Shown here: piece by piece, positions 4,607 to 15,617 of the stretch | Position numbering within the stretch: position 1 is the first letter of the stretch | Layout: every line of letters starts with the position of its first letter | IMG/VR virus record: IMGVR_UViG_3300034062_000563 | Coordinates: 1 to 24,046 of that record | Strand: one strand, 5' to 3' | Source: a virus | DNA: 24,046 nt | Made by a program: the position numbers and the translations under genes | Notes under the pieces: generated by a model | What the model saw: the letters and a program-made list of their open reading frames with translations, nothing else | What the model was told of the DNA's origin: nothing | Databases searched by the model: none

Positions 4607-6244
4607 GTGAAAACGCCCATCCTTGGCGGTAGTTATGTCGCGAGGTCGATTAACGCGGCGGACAATCGCATGGTCAACTTGTTTCCCGAAGCGGTGCCGG
4701 AAGGCAGCGGCGGGAAAGAGCCGGGTTTCTTGCTGCGCTGCCCTGGCTTGCGTCTGCTTGCGACCGTTGGCACGGGGCCTATTCGTGGCCTGTGGGTAAC
4801 CAATGGCGTGGCCTATGTGGTGTCGGGCAGTGAGTTCTACAGCCTAACTACAAGCTGGGTTGCTACTCTAATTGGCACCGTGGCCGGCACCGGTCCTGTC
4901 AGCATGGCCGACAACGGCACGCAGATATTCATTGCCTGTAACCCCAGTAGTTTCGTCTACAACACCTCCACGTCCGTATTTGGGCAGATTACCGACCCAG
5001 ACTTCCCCGGCGCAGGCTCGGTGGGCTACCTTGACGGCTATTTTGTGTTCAACGAACCCAATTCGCAGAAGTTTTGGGTGACCAGCCTGTTGGACGGCAC
5101 CTCGATTGACCCGCTGGATTTCGCCAGCGCGGAAGGTTACCCCGACAATGTAATTTCGTTAATCGTAGACCACCGCGAGATTTACCTGTTTGGCAACACC
5201 AGCGTTGAGGTCTGGTACGACGCCGGAACTCCCGACTTTCCGCTGGCGCGTATCCAAGGCGCGTTCATGGAAGTGGGTTGCGGCGCGGCGTATTCGGTTG
5301 CCAAGCTGGACAACAGCGTGTTTTGGATTGGCTCCGACGCCCGAGGCCGCGGGGTTGTTTACCGGGCTAACGGCTATTCGCCAGCCCGCGTCTCGACCAA
5401 TGCGCTGGAATACGCCATTCAAAGCTACGGCAACATCTCCGACGCGATTGCCTACACCTACCAGCAGGACGGCCACCCGTTCTATGTGCTGATATTCCCG
5501 ACAGCCCAAGCAACCTGGGTGTACGACGTATCGACGCAACTGTGGCATGAACGTGCGGGTTTTGAAAACGGACAGTTCACAAGGCACCGCAGCAACTGCC
5601 AGATGTCGTTCAACAACGAGATTGTGGTCGGGGACTACGAGGACGGGCGGTTGTACGCTTACGACCTTGATGTCTACGCCGATGACGGCCAGATCCAGAA
5701 GTGGCTGCGGTCGTGGAGAGCGTTGCCAACTGGGCAGAATAACCTCAAGCGCGCCGCGCACCACAGCCTACAGCTCGACGCCGAAACGGGTGTCGGCCTG
5801 AACGCCTACCCCGCTTACGATGGCGAAGATCTTGCCACTGAGTCAGGTAACATCATTGTGGCCCAGTTTGTGCAAGGCTATTTGACTACGCAAGCCGCTG
5901 ACCAGTTAGTCACGGAAGCCAACGATAATAACAACGCGTTGGTTACCCAAGTGCAACCCGCCGAGGATTACGACGGCTACGCGCTGGAAACCGAAGCCTA
6001 CGACGCTACGCCTGGATACGACCCGCAGGTCATGCTACGTTGGTCGGATGACGGCGGGCATACTTGGTCGAACGAACATTGGAACTCAATGGGCCAGCTT
6101 GGCGCGTACGGCACCAGAACCATCTGGCGGCGGCTTGGCATGACCCAGAAGATCCGCGACCGGGTGTATGAGGTGTCTGGAACAGACCCCGTAAAGATTG
6201 CCATTATGGGCGCTGAACTGTTTGTTACGCCGACTAGTTCCTGA
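4607..6244 (+). CDS. Packaged-DNA stabilisation / tail hub protein, P22 gp10-like
   Basis: A 545-residue protein with a GTG start at 4607 abutting the previous stop. The start is supported by TPILGGSYVARSINAADNRM, the typical opening of gp10-like stabilisation proteins. In P22, gp10 forms a hexameric hub below gp4 to which spikes and needle attach, and it helps retain packaged DNA. The sequence is rich in Trp, Tyr, Gly and Asp with propeller-like beta repeats (for example DHREIYLFGNTSVEVWYDAG and WIGSDARGRGVVYRANGY). Near the end, LRWSDDGGHTWSNEHW looks like an Asp-box (S-x-D-x-G-x-T-W). Length is somewhat above P22 gp10 (472 residues). The stop overlaps the next start. Confidence 0.88.
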   Translation: MKTPILGGSYVARSINAADNRMVNLFPEAVPEGSGGKEPGFLLRCPGLRLLATVGTGPIRGLWVTNGVAYVVSGSEFYSLTTSWVATLIGTVAGTGPVSMADNGTQIFIACNPSSFVYNTSTSVFGQITDPDFPGAGSVGYLDGYFVFNEPNSQKFWVTSLLDGTSIDPLDFASAEGYPDNVISLIVDHREIYLFGNTSVEVWYDAGTPDFPLARIQGAFMEVGCGAAYSVAKLDNSVFWIGSDARGRGVVYRANGYSPARVSTNALEYAIQSYGNISDAIAYTYQQDGHPFYVLIFPTAQATWVYDVSTQLWHERAGFENGQFTRHRSNCQMSFNNEIVVGDYEDGRLYAYDLDVYADDGQIQKWLRSWRALPTGQNNLKRAAHHSLQLDAETGVGLNAYPAYDGEDLATESGNIIVAQFVQGYLTTQAADQLVTEANDNNNALVTQVQPAEDYDGYALETEAYDATPGYDPQVMLRWSDDGGHTWSNEHWNSMGQLGAYGTRTIWRRLGMTQKIRDRVYEVSGTDPVKIAIMGAELFVTPTSS

Positions 6245-9512: not shown

Positions 9513-10007
9513 ATGAGCAACGTAAACCTCTCGCCCTTTGGTGGCGTCGGCTGGCAATTCTTCGACAACAACGGGGCGCCGTTGGCCGGTGGTCTGATCT
9601 ACACTTACGCCGCAGGCACCACCACGCCGCAAACGACCTACACGACTATCGCCGGGACGACAGCGCACACCAACCCGATTGTGTTGGACGCAGCGGGGCG
9701 GGTGCCGAGCGGTGAGATTTGGTTGCTGTTTGCCAGCTACAAGTTTGTTTTGCAAACCTCGGCAGCGGTTTTAATCGCCACTTACAACGACGTATACTCC
9801 GGTGGATCTTTGCCCGCAATTGCCAACTTTACCGGCAATGGCACCACGGTCAGCTTTAGCTTGGGTAATGCAACCGACGAGAACAGCACGAACGTCTACA
9901 TCAACGGCGTCTACCAGCAGAAAAACACTTACTCTATCAACGGATCTAATATAGTGTTTTCAGAAGCGCCCCCGGATACATCTTCGATTGAAGTTAGTCT
10001 CACCTAG
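9513..10007 (+). CDS. Tailspike head-binding-type protein (adaptor, no catalytic domain)
   Basis: A 164-residue protein starting at ATG 9513 behind AAGGAA. Residues about 8-95 (G-WQFFDNNGAPLAGGLIYTY, TNPIVLDAAGRV, GEIWLLFASYKFVLQT) follow the pattern of phage tailspike N-terminal head-binding domains of the P22 type. Residues about 105-163 are a second module (FTGNGTTVSFSLG, then NVYINGVYQQKNTYSINGSN) common in spike and fibre proteins. No beta-helix or enzyme domain follows, so it looks like a stand-alone adaptor. Context suggests it links the neighbouring spike or fibre to the gp10-like hub. GC content returns to the phage norm here. Confidence 0.75.
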   Translation: MSNVNLSPFGGVGWQFFDNNGAPLAGGLIYTYAAGTTTPQTTYTTIAGTTAHTNPIVLDAAGRVPSGEIWLLFASYKFVLQTSAAVLIATYNDVYSGGSLPAIANFTGNGTTVSFSLGNATDENSTNVYINGVYQQKNTYSINGSNIVFSEAPPDTSSIEVSLT

Positions 10008-10021
10008 CAGGAGCATATAGC

Positions 10022-10357
10022 ATGACCGTCACCGTAAAAGTGCTGATCCCGGCCAAGATCGCGGAGGCCACGCAGACGACGCAGTACACCGCGTCGAACG
10101 TCACCACGATCATCGACAAGTTTACCGCGACCAACTACAGCGCCAGCCCGGCGACCTTGAGCGTTAATTTGGTCACGGCTGCGGACACGGCGGGCAACCA
10201 GAACTTGATCACCAAGACCAAGACGCTGGCGGCGTCGGAGGTGTATACTTTCCCCGAAATTGTCGGCCAGGTGCTGATGGCGAGTGGGTTTATCTCCACC
10301 ATTGCCGGGACGGCCACGGCGATCAATATTCGCGCTTCAGGGCGGGAGATTTCGTGA
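10022..10357 (+). CDS. Small virion-region protein of unknown function
   Basis: A 111-residue protein starting at ATG 10022 behind GGAG. It is beta-rich, with many Thr, Ala and Val residues, and has no signal peptide, membrane segment or catalytic motif. The pattern (SNVTTIIDKFTATNYSASPA, then TLAASEVYTFPEIVGQVL) resembles small beta-sandwich proteins encoded near tail genes in various phages, but I do not recognise a named family. Its stop overlaps the GTG start of the cupin-SET gene by three bases (GTGA), so the two are probably translationally coupled. Confidence 0.65.
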   Translation: MTVTVKVLIPAKIAEATQTTQYTASNVTTIIDKFTATNYSASPATLSVNLVTAADTAGNQNLITKTKTLAASEVYTFPEIVGQVLMASGFISTIAGTATAINIRASGREIS

Positions 10358-11211
10358 ACGACGCTGTAGAGGCTTTAGGTATGTTCAGTAGCCCCCGTAG
10401 TGAGGCCGCTGTGCAAGTACTTGAGGAAGGTTTTTTGAAGCATCCACAGGTTGAATGTCCTGTTATCCATCGTTTCGGGCCGGGGTTATATATCCGTGAA
10501 GTTACAATCCCCGCAGATACGTTTTCTGTAGGACATCGCCAAACGACGGCCCACATAAATATCATGCTAGAAGGCCGCGTGACTATGGTAAACGAAGATG
10601 GCTCGCATACTGAGTTGCGCGCGCCGCAGACTTTCGTGGCCCCCCCAGGGCGGAAAGTCGGCTATATTCACGAAAAAATGGTTTGGTTGAACGTGTACGC
10701 TACAACCGAAACGGACGTAGAGATACTAGAGGCGACCTATCTGGATAAGAGCCCTGTTTGGCGCGCCGCGCAGGCAGATACGCGGCTGTTGTTGGGTGCT
10801 GATATTATTGCGGAAAATCGCGCTGACTATCTGGCAGTATTGGCTGAGTTTGGTATATCGCACGAACTGGCGAGATCGCAAACAGAGAATATTACTGATC
10901 AGATTCCGTTCCCCTACGATGGGTACAAGATCGTGGTGGCGCCTTCCGAACTAGACGGGCGCGGCGTGTTTGCGACGGCGTTTTTGCGCGCAGGAGAAGT
11001 TATTGCTCCCGCCCGGTTAGGTGGTATGCGGACCCCTGCCGGTAGATTCACGAACCACACCAAAGAGCCGAACGCAATTATGCAGCGCGTCGGTGACGAT
11101 ATATATCTCGTCGCGTCGCGTGGTATTAATGGGTGCCGCGGAGGAACGCTTGGCGAAGAAGTTACAGTAGACTATCGGCAGGCGCTACGTCTTACGTTGA
11201 AAGGTATATAG
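10354..11211 (+). CDS. Cupin-SET domain fusion, putative protein-lysine methyltransferase
   Basis: A 285-residue protein with a GTG start at 10354 overlapping the previous stop (GTGA). Residues about 40-125 look like a cupin beta-barrel: H61 and H67 in GHRQTTAHINIMLEGRVTMV, a Gly-rich turn, and H106 in the second half. Residues about 188-282 are a SET domain: DGRGVFAT (201-208) for the S-adenosylmethionine site, the hallmark RFTNHTKEPNA (231-241; canonical NHSxxPN), and GEEVTVDY (267-274) with the conserved Tyr 274. SET enzymes methylate lysine side chains. The substrate is unknown; a virion or host protein is possible. It lies between spike and ejection genes, an odd place for an enzyme. No cysteine-rich post-SET region follows. 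Confidence 0.8.
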   Translation: MNDAVEALGMFSSPRSEAAVQVLEEGFLKHPQVECPVIHRFGPGLYIREVTIPADTFSVGHRQTTAHINIMLEGRVTMVNEDGSHTELRAPQTFVAPPGRKVGYIHEKMVWLNVYATTETDVEILEATYLDKSPVWRAAQADTRLLLGADIIAENRADYLAVLAEFGISHELARSQTENITDQIPFPYDGYKIVVAPSELDGRGVFATAFLRAGEVIAPARLGGMRTPAGRFTNHTKEPNAIMQRVGDDIYLVASRGINGCRGGTLGEEVTVDYRQALRLTLKGI

Positions 11212-11213
11212 TT

Positions 11214-11948
11214 ATGTCAGCAGTAGCAACAGCCATTATTGGTTCAGCTGTCATTGGCGCGGGCACTGGCATTTATGCTTCCAATAAGGCTTCGTCCGCG
11301 CAGGCAAAAGCCGCCGAACAGCAGGCGCAGACTGCCCGAGACACGCTTACCTCCCAACAGGCAATCGCAGCGCCGTATACAATCGCTGGGTCTTTTGGCG
11401 TAAACGAACTTGCCCGGCAGTTAGGCGTCGCCGGGGACAGTAGCTCGGCGGGTTACGGCTCGCTAATGAAAGAGTATGACCCCTCAACCTTCACCGCCGA
11501 CCCTGGCTATGGCTTCCGTATGGCCGAGGGCCAGAAGGCGCTTGAACGCTCGGCAGCAGCGCGGGGCGGCTTGCTGTCCGGCTCGGCCATGAAGGGTACA
11601 CTCAATTACGCGCAGGGGCTGGCGTCGCAGGAGTATCAGAACGCTTTCAACCGCTACACCTCCGAACGCAACAGGCGGTATGATATGCTGCGGGGGCTGA
11701 CGGATGTCGGTGCTGGCGCGGCGGGTTCGATGGTTGGCGCGGCGGGCACTGCCGGGGCTAATACGGCCACCGCGCAGGGCAACGCCGGCGCGGCGCAGGC
11801 GTCTGGCTATGTTGGCGCGGCAAACGCCATCACTGGCGGCGTGTCCAACATATCGAGCTATCTTCAGAATAAGCCGTTAAACGATATGCTTGCAAATTAT
11901 TATAGGCCCACCGCTGCTGCACCGTTGCCCGGCTACGGCGGCTACTAA
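11214..11948 (+). CDS. DNA ejection/transfer protein, small (P22 gp7-position)
   Basis: A 244-residue protein. I chose ATG 11214, two bases after the cupin-SET stop, over longer in-frame starts inside that gene. Residues 2-22 (SAVATAIIGSAVIGAGTGIY) are a hydrophobic glycine-zipper-like segment, followed by an Ala/Gln-rich helix. Residues about 95-160 contain GYGFRMAEGQKALERSAAAR and LASQEYQNAFNRYTSERNRR, typical of phage DNA-transfer/injection proteins. The last third is Gly/Ala-rich and probably membrane-active. Such proteins are packaged in the virion and enter the cell envelope to build the DNA conduit. Order (small, medium, large) matches gp7, gp20, gp16 of P22. Confidence 0.8.
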   Translation: MSAVATAIIGSAVIGAGTGIYASNKASSAQAKAAEQQAQTARDTLTSQQAIAAPYTIAGSFGVNELARQLGVAGDSSSAGYGSLMKEYDPSTFTADPGYGFRMAEGQKALERSAAARGGLLSGSAMKGTLNYAQGLASQEYQNAFNRYTSERNRRYDMLRGLTDVGAGAAGSMVGAAGTAGANTATAQGNAGAAQASGYVGAANAITGGVSNISSYLQNKPLNDMLANYYRPTAAAPLPGYGGY

Positions 11949-11962
11949 AGGAATTGCTTGAC

Positions 11963-13207
11963 ATGGCCGACAATAGCATCGCGCTTGGCATCCGCCCAAT
12001 GGCCGTACCGGACTACGCGGCCTCAACCATGAACCGCGTAAACATGATGGGCGCGCTTGCTAAGATGGACGAATACAAGGCGGGCGTGGCCGAGAAGAAC
12101 GCGCTGGCCCAGCTTGTGACGCAGCCCGGCTTCGACCCGTCCTCGACGGAGTCGCAGAATATGATCCTGCGCGTGGCCCCGACCACCGGGCCGGGCATCC
12201 TCAAGGGCCTGACCGAGACGCGGACTGCCGGCGTGGGCCTGAAGAGTGCGGAGTTTGAACTTCAAAAGAAACAACGCGACGACGCCATATTGGCAATTGC
12301 AACGCTCAACACGCCGGATGAAGCCTTGGCTAGCTTGCAAAAGCACATGCAAGACGGCAGCATAGGTAAAGAACAGGCACAATCGCTAGCGCAAGCCATT
12401 ACCGGCGCACCGGATTTCAATATGTGGAAGACGCAAACGATTCGCGGCCTACTTACCGCCGCGCAGCAGGCGCAGCAGACTTTCACGAACCAAAACCTCG
12501 GCGGCAGCATCCGTCAGATCGCAACGCCGACTTACGGCGGCGGGCCCGCCGTTGTTGTCCCCGGCAGCACGGGCACCGTAACCGCGACGCCGGGCGAGGT
12601 CATGTCGAACGCCACCACGCGGCGCGGCCAAGATTTCCAGAACGACCCCAACGTTCTTGACAAGATTGTCACCGACTCCGCTGGCAACGTCACCAAGTAC
12701 AACAAGTTTGGTCAGGTTATCGGGACCGACAAGGGCGTAGGCAAGCCCAGCGCCACGTTCGAGAAGACGCGCGTTCAGCGCGAGCAGCTAAACAAAGACC
12801 TAGACAGAACAATCTCAGAACTGGAGCGGGCCACCCAGAAAGGCGGCCTGATCGAGACGGCGACTGGCTCGGGCGCCGGGGCGCTGCGCGACGTGGCGAA
12901 GGGGTTCTTTGGCGTGGCTACGGAGGGCTCGGTCGCTATCGGAGCGCTGAAGCCTATCTACGACATGGTTCTCAAGATGGTCCCCCGGTTCGAGGGACCG
13001 CAGAGCGAGAAGGATGTTGTGTCTTACCAAGACGCGGCGGGTAATCTTGCCAACCCGAATACACCGACGGCTACTAAACTGGCCGCCGCCAAGGAGATCC
13101 TGCGGCTGATGAAGGCCCGCAAGGGCCAGTTCGTGACCCGCGACATGGCGGAAGGCAGCGGGATTGTTGCCGATGGCGTGGATACATCCAATCCTTTTCT
13201 GAAATAG
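11963..13207 (+). CDS. Internal virion / DNA ejection protein (P22 gp20-position)
   Basis: A 414-residue protein. ATG 11963 is preferred over TTG 11954 because AAAGGA (11947-11952) is correctly spaced from it. Sequence is mostly helical and Ala/Gln/Lys-rich, with no signal peptide. A Gly/Pro/Thr-rich linker lies around residues 190-215. The C-terminal part (IYDMVLKMVPRFEGPQSEKD, VSYQDAAGNLANPNTP, TKLAAAKEILRLMKARKGQF) matches a module common in the tails of phage ejection proteins. It lies between the small and large ejection-type genes. The specific role (pore, chaperone or DNA-pulling component) cannot be read from sequence. Confidence 0.72.
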   Translation: MADNSIALGIRPMAVPDYAASTMNRVNMMGALAKMDEYKAGVAEKNALAQLVTQPGFDPSSTESQNMILRVAPTTGPGILKGLTETRTAGVGLKSAEFELQKKQRDDAILAIATLNTPDEALASLQKHMQDGSIGKEQAQSLAQAITGAPDFNMWKTQTIRGLLTAAQQAQQTFTNQNLGGSIRQIATPTYGGGPAVVVPGSTGTVTATPGEVMSNATTRRGQDFQNDPNVLDKIVTDSAGNVTKYNKFGQVIGTDKGVGKPSATFEKTRVQREQLNKDLDRTISELERATQKGGLIETATGSGAGALRDVAKGFFGVATEGSVAIGALKPIYDMVLKMVPRFEGPQSEKDVVSYQDAAGNLANPNTPTATKLAAAKEILRLMKARKGQFVTRDMAEGSGIVADGVDTSNPFLK

Positions 13208-13214
13208 GACGGTT

Positions 13215-15617
13215 ATGGCGACGGCGCAGCAAATCCTTAAAGACCCAGCCTACGTCAACGCCAACCCGGCGACGAAGCAGGCTATCTTCGACAAGCACAT
13301 CGCCCCTGATCCGGCGTTCGCCAACGCCAATGAGGCGACCAAAGGGGCAATCCTAGGGCGGTTCGGCTTAACCCCCGTCGTTGCCACCGCTGCCGCGCCC
13401 GAGGCCGCCCCCGACGCAGTGCCGCAGCGCCGCCTCGGCTTCATAGAAGGTTTGCTGCCAGCCGCTGTCCAGCAGGCTAAGGAACTCGCCGCCCCGGTGG
13501 CTGGCTTTGCGGAGGGCGCAGCCACCGTAGGGCTCGGGGCTGGGGAATTGATAGGGCGCGGGTTGGAAGCTGTCGGCGCCGGCGGGCACCTTCGGTCTTT
13601 TGTCGCAGAAGATCGCGCAAGATTAGACAAGGCGATGGCCCCGTTCCGCGCGGCGGCCCCAACCGGCACGGGTATGGGTAAGCTGGCTGGCGAAATAGCC
13701 ATTACCTACCCCGTTGGCGGTTTCTTGGCCGCGCCGGTAAAGTTGGCGGGGAAGCTTATCCCGGCGGGGACCAAGATAACCGAGGCGTTGTCGAAAGCGT
13801 TGACCACGGGCGGGTTCCGCACCGGCGTCGAGGCTACCACGACCGGAGGCCGCGTTGCGAACGTAGCTACCCGCGCGGCGGGCGGTGCCGCTACTGGCGG
13901 CACGGTTACGGCGCTGGTCAGCCCTGACGACGCCGGCACGGGCGCTGTCATCGGTGCGGCGCTGCCGGTCGCCGCCGCGCCGGCCTTGTCTTGGCTGGTC
14001 AACAAAGGTGCCAAGCTGTACGCGCTGCTTCGCGGTGAAGCAGGGGCGGATAAGGCCCGGCAGATCATCACGGACACCTTAGGGGCATCTTACGATAGGG
14101 CGCTGGCAGCCCTGCGGGCGGCCAAGCCTGGGGACACGGCGCGAGACGTATTGGCGCGTGAGGGTATCAACGCGGACGCTTTCATGGCGTTGGGCGAAGC
14201 CGTGGAGAAGCGGGATCTGTCCGGGTTCTACCGCCTCCAGAGGGAGGCCGTTATCGCCAAGGACCGGGCGCGCCTAGCCCGGCTGGCGCAGGGCGGCACC
14301 CAGACCGAAGCTCGCACGGCGCAGAGGGCCAACGCCAGAAACCTAAACGCCCTCACCGGCCCCCTGCGGGAAACCGAGCTGGAGGCAGCCAATACGGCGG
14401 GCCGTATGTTGCCGGGGTTGACCGAACAAAAGAACAGGTTTGCCGCCGCTGCCGGCCAGAACGTCGAGGATGTCCGCCGGCTAAAGGAAGCCGAAGATAT
14501 AGCCCGGTTCGAGGCTGTTGGTCGTCAGTCCGGCAACGCGCCAGCGGACGCCGCCCGCGTCAAGTACACGCTGGAGCAGGCTAAGTTTGCAGAGCGCAAG
14601 GCGGGCGAGGCCGCTGACCGCAGCCTGCTGTTTGGCGACGTGGCGCGAGAGGTCGAACGCCGCGCGGCCAGTCTTGAGGCATACGGCTTGAAGCCGCTGG
14701 ACATCGAAGGCGTGGTTTCTAAGCTGGAACAGAAAGCCCGCACGCCGGGCATCCGTGCGGACACGGTGCAGGTGCAAACGCTATCCGATGTGGCAACGCA
14801 ACTGCGTAAGCTGGCGGACGCCAACGGCGGCATCATCGACGCTGAAGACCTGTACCAAGTCCGCAAGACATTCCTGAACGACGCCATCCGGAAGCAGTTG
14901 GCGGCGGTGAGCCCCAAGGTTGACAAGAAACGCGTGGCCGAGCTGTTGGCCGGCATCAAGCCGCTGATAGACGACGCTATCGAGGCGGCTGGCGGCAAGA
15001 AGTGGCGCACCTACCTAGCGACGCACGCCGCCGGGGCCGAAGAAAACGCCCGGCGCGTGCTGTACGCCGAGGCGCTCGGCATGTACCAGAAGTCGCCTAA
15101 CGCCTACCGGGAGCTGGTGCGCGGCGACAACCCCAAGGCGGTCGAGAAGATTTTCGGTTCCGGCAGCTACGACATCTTTAAACAGATGAGCAAGGGGTCC
15201 GGCCCGCCAGCCATGAAGATCATGGGGGGCATATCGAAGAACCTGGAGCGGGCCGAGGCGATCAAGACCCAAGCGGCAGCCGGCCAAGGCGGCCTAGAGC
15301 GCGTGCTGAAGAAGGACACGTCAAATCTCCGGCTGCCTAACTTCTTCAGCTACAAGGCAACCGTCACCAACGAAGTGCTGGATATCCTGCAAAAGCGCGT
15401 GTCCGACAAGACGCTCTCCGCGTTTGAGACTGCGTTCAAGTCGGGCAAGAACATGGCAAGCGCACTAGATAAGCTGCCCGTAGAGGAACGCAACCGGGTC
15501 GTGAAGCTGCTGGCCGACACGAAGAATTACCCCGCAAGCGTATCCCTCGCGGCTATACTGGCGTCAACGCCGCGTAACGCTATGGCCGAAGACAACCGAA
15601 ACAGCATGAACCAGTAG
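13215..15617 (+). CDS. Large internal virion / DNA ejection protein (P22 gp16-position)
   Basis: An 800-residue protein starting at ATG 13215, seven bases after the previous stop. Residues 10-31 and 32-53 are a tandem 22-residue repeat (DPAYVNANPATKQAI and DPAFANANEATKGAI). Ala/Gly-rich, potentially membrane-inserting segments occur near 75-125 and 222-270 (for example GAVIGAALPVAAAPALSWLV). The rest (about 290-780) is long, charged and helical, with likely coiled coils. I see no lysozyme or transglycosylase active-site motif, so any peptidoglycan activity is unproven. Size and place at the end of the virion operon fit the largest ejection protein, which crosses the envelope during infection. 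Confidence 0.75.
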   Translation: MATAQQILKDPAYVNANPATKQAIFDKHIAPDPAFANANEATKGAILGRFGLTPVVATAAAPEAAPDAVPQRRLGFIEGLLPAAVQQAKELAAPVAGFAEGAATVGLGAGELIGRGLEAVGAGGHLRSFVAEDRARLDKAMAPFRAAAPTGTGMGKLAGEIAITYPVGGFLAAPVKLAGKLIPAGTKITEALSKALTTGGFRTGVEATTTGGRVANVATRAAGGAATGGTVTALVSPDDAGTGAVIGAALPVAAAPALSWLVNKGAKLYALLRGEAGADKARQIITDTLGASYDRALAALRAAKPGDTARDVLAREGINADAFMALGEAVEKRDLSGFYRLQREAVIAKDRARLARLAQGGTQTEARTAQRANARNLNALTGPLRETELEAANTAGRMLPGLTEQKNRFAAAAGQNVEDVRRLKEAEDIARFEAVGRQSGNAPADAARVKYTLEQAKFAERKAGEAADRSLLFGDVAREVERRAASLEAYGLKPLDIEGVVSKLEQKARTPGIRADTVQVQTLSDVATQLRKLADANGGIIDAEDLYQVRKTFLNDAIRKQLAAVSPKVDKKRVAELLAGIKPLIDDAIEAAGGKKWRTYLATHAAGAEENARRVLYAEALGMYQKSPNAYRELVRGDNPKAVEKIFGSGSYDIFKQMSKGSGPPAMKIMGGISKNLERAEAIKTQAAAGQGGLERVLKKDTSNLRLPNFFSYKATVTNEVLDILQKRVSDKTLSAFETAFKSGKNMASALDKLPVEERNRVVKLLADTKNYPASVSLAAILASTPRNAMAEDNRNSMNQ

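Follow-up and report, generated by a model that had tools for sequence, protein, structure and literature searches.

Ejection proteins are packed in the phage capsid, pass through the narrow tail and refold into a channel across the host envelope, and how they are prepared for this passage is poorly understood. Gene-order comparison places T7 gene 13 (gp13; PF11090, phrog_308; 'probable scaffold') and P22 gene 14 (gp14; PF11039 DUF2824, phrog_651; 'head morphogenesis') in the same slot, between the tail or head-completion genes and the gp14 or gp7 ejection genes. Elsewhere this slot is held by stand-alone cupins, such as Sphaerotilus phage vB_SnaP-R1 gp38 and Vibrio phage VvAW1 gp04. SET-domain enzymes (PF00856) are a known kind of methyltransferase, and those nearest in structure to the protein considered here are MLL1, MLL3, EZH2 and vSET of the algal virus PBCV-1. 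A 2026 study of Cellulophaga phages without a known methyltransferase reported methylated proteins (methyl-lysine) in free virions (PMC13288928); it did not involve the family described below.

We analysed a 24,046-nucleotide stretch of viral DNA (IMG/VR record IMGVR_UViG_3300034062_000563, hereafter the window) that encodes a protein joining a cupin to a SET domain. The protein shares with PF00856 enzymes the fold and the GxG, NHxxxPN and ExxxDY motifs. Unlike known SET enzymes, it is without the SET-I insert, displays no recognizable pre-SET or post-SET cysteine clusters, is fused to a cupin and is encoded in a phage ejection module. The stand-alone cupins (phrog_12032, phrog_24280, 'PHA00672') are homologous to its cupin and occupy its slot but carry no SET domain. 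T7 gp13 and P22 gp14 also share the slot, and comparison of the window protein with PF11090, PF11039 and PHROG profiles revealed no sequence relationship to either. Searching a literature library for SET domain, cupin, phage and methyltransferase together yielded no description of the fusion, the remaining SET-domain hits being immunoglobulin C2-set or I-set domains, and the genome papers of phages P26218, X14 and VvAW1 do not discuss the gene as encoding a SET or cupin protein. For a putative SET methyltransferase, itself a known kind, a phage ejection module is an unexpected setting.

The cupin-SET gene and its two domains

The open reading frame encodes 285 amino acids and runs from a GTG start at 10354 to 11211 (+), as a preliminary description of the sequence had it. 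A GGGAGA stretch lies 4 nt 5' of the GTG codon, and the start shares four nucleotides (GTGA, 10354–10357) with the end of the preceding gene. The overlapping start noted in that description is therefore real as a 4-nt overlap, but the exact start is uncertain because many relatives begin near an internal ATG at 10381, which corresponds to their aligned start position; the functional start may thus lie elsewhere than at the overlap. Since the next gene begins at 11214, 2 nt past the stop codon, the close spacing to the ejection gene can be stated more firmly.

Across residues 15–280 of 285, the protein gives a full-length match (E = 1.3e-77) to phrog_34170, a 296-position family to which no function had been assigned. 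Searches of NCBIfam profiles returned no match for the protein, and megablast against sequenced phages returned no close DNA relatives of the window. A faint resemblance between residues 148–174 and AsiA, the anti-sigma factor of T4 (E = 0.45), was taken as chance. An AlphaFold2 model built from 65 sequences reached a pLDDT of 94.4 and a pTM of 0.90, and replaced an earlier model from 17 sequences (pLDDT 66.7).

The C-terminal part of the protein is a compact SET domain comprising residues 188–275 plus a C-terminal helix (10915–11208, +). It matches PF00856 at E = 6.5e-6 and 27.0 bits, above the curated cut-off of 22.4, and 64 of 65 relatives match the same profile independently. The two motifs first read as SET hallmarks, RFTNHTKEPNA and EEVTVDY, lie at residues 231–241 and 268–274, and structure prediction bears out the SET fold that they implied. 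The SET part of the model superposes on solved structures of MLL1, EZH2 and vSET with Z scores of about 10: for the MLL1 SET domain (7u5v), Z is 10.5 with an rmsd of 2.0 over 79 residues at 34% identity, and for vSET, Z is 9.6 with an rmsd of 1.9 over 79 residues. Identity to MLL1, MLL3 and vSET ranges from 28 to 35% over 75–85 aligned residues.

Conservation within the family is concentrated at recognizable positions. Among 144 fused sequences, comprising the window protein and relatives 26–61% identical to it (median 51%), the residues S198, G202, G204, R226, T227, N234, H235, E269 and Y274 are invariant. Both glycines of the S-adenosylmethionine-binding turn, G202-x-G204 (10957–10965, +), are found in 144/144. 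The NHSxxPN-type motif, R226-T-P-A-G-R-F-T-N234-H235-T-K-E-P-N240 (11029–11073, +), retains R226, T227, N234 and H235 in 144/144, G230 and R231 in 143/144 and N240 in 142/144. In the ELxxDY-type motif that carries the catalytic tyrosine, E268-E269-V-T-V-D-Y274 (11155–11175, +), E269 is present in 144/144 and Y274 in 143/143. In known SET enzymes the corresponding residues make up the cofactor-binding turn, the NHSxxPN motif and the catalytic Tyr. Judged from sequence, the full conservation of the GxG, NH, E and Tyr positions is what an active enzyme would be expected to show, and the predicted fold and the conservation together strongly support reading the C-terminal domain as a SET enzyme.

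The domain is nonetheless a variant. The model SET spans 90 residues versus about 124 in MLL1, and the SET-I insert is absent in 144/144 sequences, with the spacing between G204 and N234 exactly 30 residues throughout. SET-I normally forms part of the substrate groove and is variable among known SETs; because of this variability, its absence signals a departure from the usual form without excluding membership. The role of SET-I would have to fall to the helical bridge, to another subunit or to the substrate complex.

The N-terminal half contains an RmlC-like jelly-roll cupin domain (residues 33–118; 10450–10707, +). It is homologous to phrog_12032 (E = 2.7e-29) and phrog_24280 (E = 1.6e-26), the families of the stand-alone 'PHA00672 / short tail fiber' cupins. 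The preliminary assignment of a cupin stands at the level of fold, with model matches to HP0902 (Z 10.0), ppnP (Z 9.9) and RPA4178 (Z 9.5), but not at that of the Cupin_2 profile (PF07883), which scores 17.4 bits against a cut-off of 27.2 and is matched by 5 of 65 relatives at E 0.01. Its motif 1 (GH.Q...H......G, residues 60–74; 10531–10575, +) is degenerate: G60 is present in 142/144, H61 in 123/144, Q63 in 90/144 (H in 49), H67 in 132/144 and G74 in 143/144. The motif-2 histidine position, residue 102, is I, V, A, M or L in 143/144. Conserved cupin residues are R48, G99, H39, G74 and W111. The family thus lacks the canonical set of metal ligands across the two cupin motifs, as well as an HxD/E...H iron motif. 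Because a canonical metal or ligand motif is lacking, a scaffold or docking role appears more likely than the small-ligand binding first suggested for this domain. Between the two domains, the model and the relatives delineate a helical bridge and pre-SET helices (residues 119–187; 10708–10914, +), of which the stretch 152–187 is also present at the N-terminus of one SET-only relative.

Relatives and the slot before the ejection genes

An arrangement that at first seemed exceptional proved to characterize a family that is widespread and keeps to one genomic position. In a viral contig collection, the full-length alignment identified 342 relatives and the SET part more than 470, with the best 80 per scan kept. 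Among 157 non-redundant loci drawn from these best 80 per scan, and including the window and fetched phage records, 144 encode cupin-SET proteins, counts that do not give the prevalence of the fusion because the searches began from the fusion itself. The other loci comprise 5 with the reversed SET-cupin order, 2 with split genes, 1 SET-only and 5 cupin-only; locus L175 may be a frameshifted fusion. Bacterial genome contigs returned no relatives to a full-length single query; a SET alignment query returned 8 contigs, including the prophage-like L208 and L209.

The rarer arrangements bear on how the two parts are associated. Each of the five reversed genes (L211, L219, L231, L251 and L261) lies directly before a gp7-type gene. 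In L209, a Paraburkholderia ferrariae contig with phage-like genes, cupin and SET are adjacent overlapping genes, and in L208 a SET-only gene lies upstream of genes that look ejection-like on inspection. These cases show that both parts have come together again and again near the ejection module. In a quick cupin tree based on few columns, the change between fused and unfused states takes 6 steps, and well supported branches require at least 3 of them for the cupin-only group; in the same tree, the PH1 fusion clusters with the cupin-only VvAW1/BA3 set. From these steps, the SET domain has probably been gained or lost repeatedly on a cupin anchor.

Cultured relatives of the window protein are Rhodoferax phage P26218 gp30 and Pseudoalteromonas phage PH1 gp49, which make cupin-SET function testable now. 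One record names a homologue 'pbcV-1 histone H3-lys 27 methyltransferase structure'.

In the window, the gene lies between tailspike/fibre and ejection genes, as had been proposed. The gene that follows (11214–11948, +), 2 nt past the cupin-SET stop, encodes a P22 gp7-like DNA-ejection protein (phrog_598 'DNA ejection', E = 1.5e-30). Two further ejection-type genes (11954–13207 and 13215–15617, +) are recognized by position and by an order like that of P22 genes 20 and 16, their sequence family matches being weak or none. Relatives of the preceding small gene (111 aa; 10022–10357, +), whose end overlaps the cupin-SET start, occur in 45 of 210 loci, and this gene is a possible partner of the module. 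The 164-aa product of positions 9513–10007, encoded between it and the tailspike, matches DUF4183 (E = 5e-7) and fibre-like PHROG families.

This placement is general, not accidental. In nearly all loci the cupin-SET gene is immediately upstream of an ejection gene of the P22 gp7 or T7 gp14 type, and a recognized gp7-type gene directly follows 129 of 149 fusions. In nearly all of 148 loci the next open reading frame starts −25 to +5 nt from the cupin-SET stop; its product typically begins MS(G/A)xATA. Among the annotated phages examined that carry a stand-alone cupin without SET, those of P22-like type, Autographiviridae (SnaP-R1, VAC_51) and Zobellviridae likewise have the cupin gene just ahead of the first one for an ejection or internal virion protein; an exception is Alteromonas phage H4/4, whose stand-alone cupin lies between the RNA polymerase and portal region.

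Candidate function and substrate

With moderate confidence, we propose that the cupin-SET protein is an assembly-phase lysine methyltransferase, docked through its cupin on the ejection machinery, that methylates ejection or portal/tail proteins. The cupin barrel, which occupies the slot more widely than the fusion does, would dock or scaffold the ejection (internal virion) proteins, or the portal/tail parts that they assemble on, a role suggested because the cupin stays in the slot where SET is missing. The SET domain would be an active S-adenosylmethionine-dependent lysine methyltransferase, a reading based on its invariant catalytic signature, and would methylate at least one ejection or portal/tail protein while that protein is made and assembled. 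Many short-tailed phages may in this way chemically mark their own particle proteins during assembly.

Synteny points to the ejection machinery over fibres or coat as the substrate, but what it establishes is co-expression, not proof of substrate. In the gp7-type downstream proteins, no lysine column is conserved in at least 60% of loci, so that a single conserved target lysine is not seen there. The only strongly conserved neighbour lysines found, each from few rows, were K120 of a gp4-like protein (67/68) and K207 of a scaffold protein (14/16).

An active SET methyltransferase could instead modify a host target, such as a translation factor or a protein of the envelope or of host defence, with the late operon serving for timing only or with the enzyme carried in the virion. 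The invariant catalytic motifs are silent on the target, and methylation of Cellulophaga host proteins shifts during phage infection, EF-Tu being heavily methylated (PMC13288928). Nevertheless, host takeover needs neither a late position nor the strict linkage to ejection genes that holds in every fused arrangement, and we consider this alternative unlikely.

Less probable again is that the SET domain is non-enzymatic, a cofactor- or peptide-binding structural module within a protein that serves ejection-protein assembly as chaperone or adaptor. Uniform absence of SET-I, at constant spacing, would suit such a protein, as would the related phages in which a cupin alone fills the slot, implying that SET is dispensable for the slot's basic job. 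It is hard, however, to reconcile this reading with a GxG, NH, E and Tyr signature that stays invariant in 144 sequences down to 26% identity.

The names given to stand-alone cupins, 'short tail fiber protein' and 'tail fiber adhesin' in PHROG and GenBank, raise the idea that the cupin is a receptor-binding fibre or adhesin and that the SET part modifies fibres, and the N-terminal half is indeed homologous to the families so named. We judge this very improbable: the gene travels with ejection genes, not fibre genes; neither the fold matches nor Pfam include a fibre domain; and the genome papers give no experimental basis for the fibre or adhesin name. The 'tail fibre' labels are probably wrong, because the cupins that bear them occupy the slot before the ejection genes, and should be reconsidered. 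A cupin oxygenase or demethylase acting on a small molecule, or paired with the SET methyltransferase for two-way methylation, is similarly far-fetched, for although some cupin-superfamily proteins are demethylases and the idea was raised for a host cupin (PMC13288928), the family has no HxD/E...H iron motif, variable ligand positions and a hydrophobic residue or Ala at the motif-2 His position in nearly all 144 sequences.

Should the proposed methylation of ejection or portal/tail proteins hold, a conserved methyltransferase gene joined to the ejection cassette would suggest that post-translational marking takes part in preparing ejection proteins. It would also offer a candidate enzyme class for the methyl-lysine reported in phage virions (PMC13288928).

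Other occupants of the slot and nearby modification genes

Extending the proposal to other phages, we suggest more tentatively that the podophage slot before the ejection genes could be one reserved for protein modification or maturation, filled according to lineage by members of the GNAT-like T7 gp13 family, by cupins or by cupin-SET proteins. By methylating ejection or portal/tail proteins in the course of assembly, its SET members would count as the first lysine methyltransferases encoded by phages that are known to act on virions. The T7 gp13 homologue of phage phiPsa17 is not among its 11 virion proteins (PMC4517105), which is consistent with a slot for assembly factors.

At two loci, a T7-gp13-family gene and a cupin-SET gene occur together. 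In L215, a member of the former family (5034–5582; phrog_308, E = 1.7e-24) overlaps the start of the cupin-SET open reading frame, and one occupies the same place in L263. The L215 protein matches PF13302 weakly, under the cut-off (E = 0.0012). Here, two slot occupants stand side by side, and the weak match hints at a GNAT-like nature of the T7 gp13 family. By eye, P22 gp14 (gene 14; L288, 8911–9366) resembles GNAT acetyltransferases at its C-terminus.

Phage zth2-2 (L034) encodes a GNAT acetyltransferase (10090–10575; PF00583, E = 4.2e-6) less than 1 kb after its cupin-SET gene, and its cupin-SET module adjoins terminase and portal-like genes. In cyanophage P-RSM6 (L392), CPXG_00131 (3058–3357) is weakly SET-like (26.7% identity, E = 2e-4) and adjoins the gp25-like baseplate wedge gene of this T4-like cyanophage. 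SET-like genes may therefore occur in other virion modules too.
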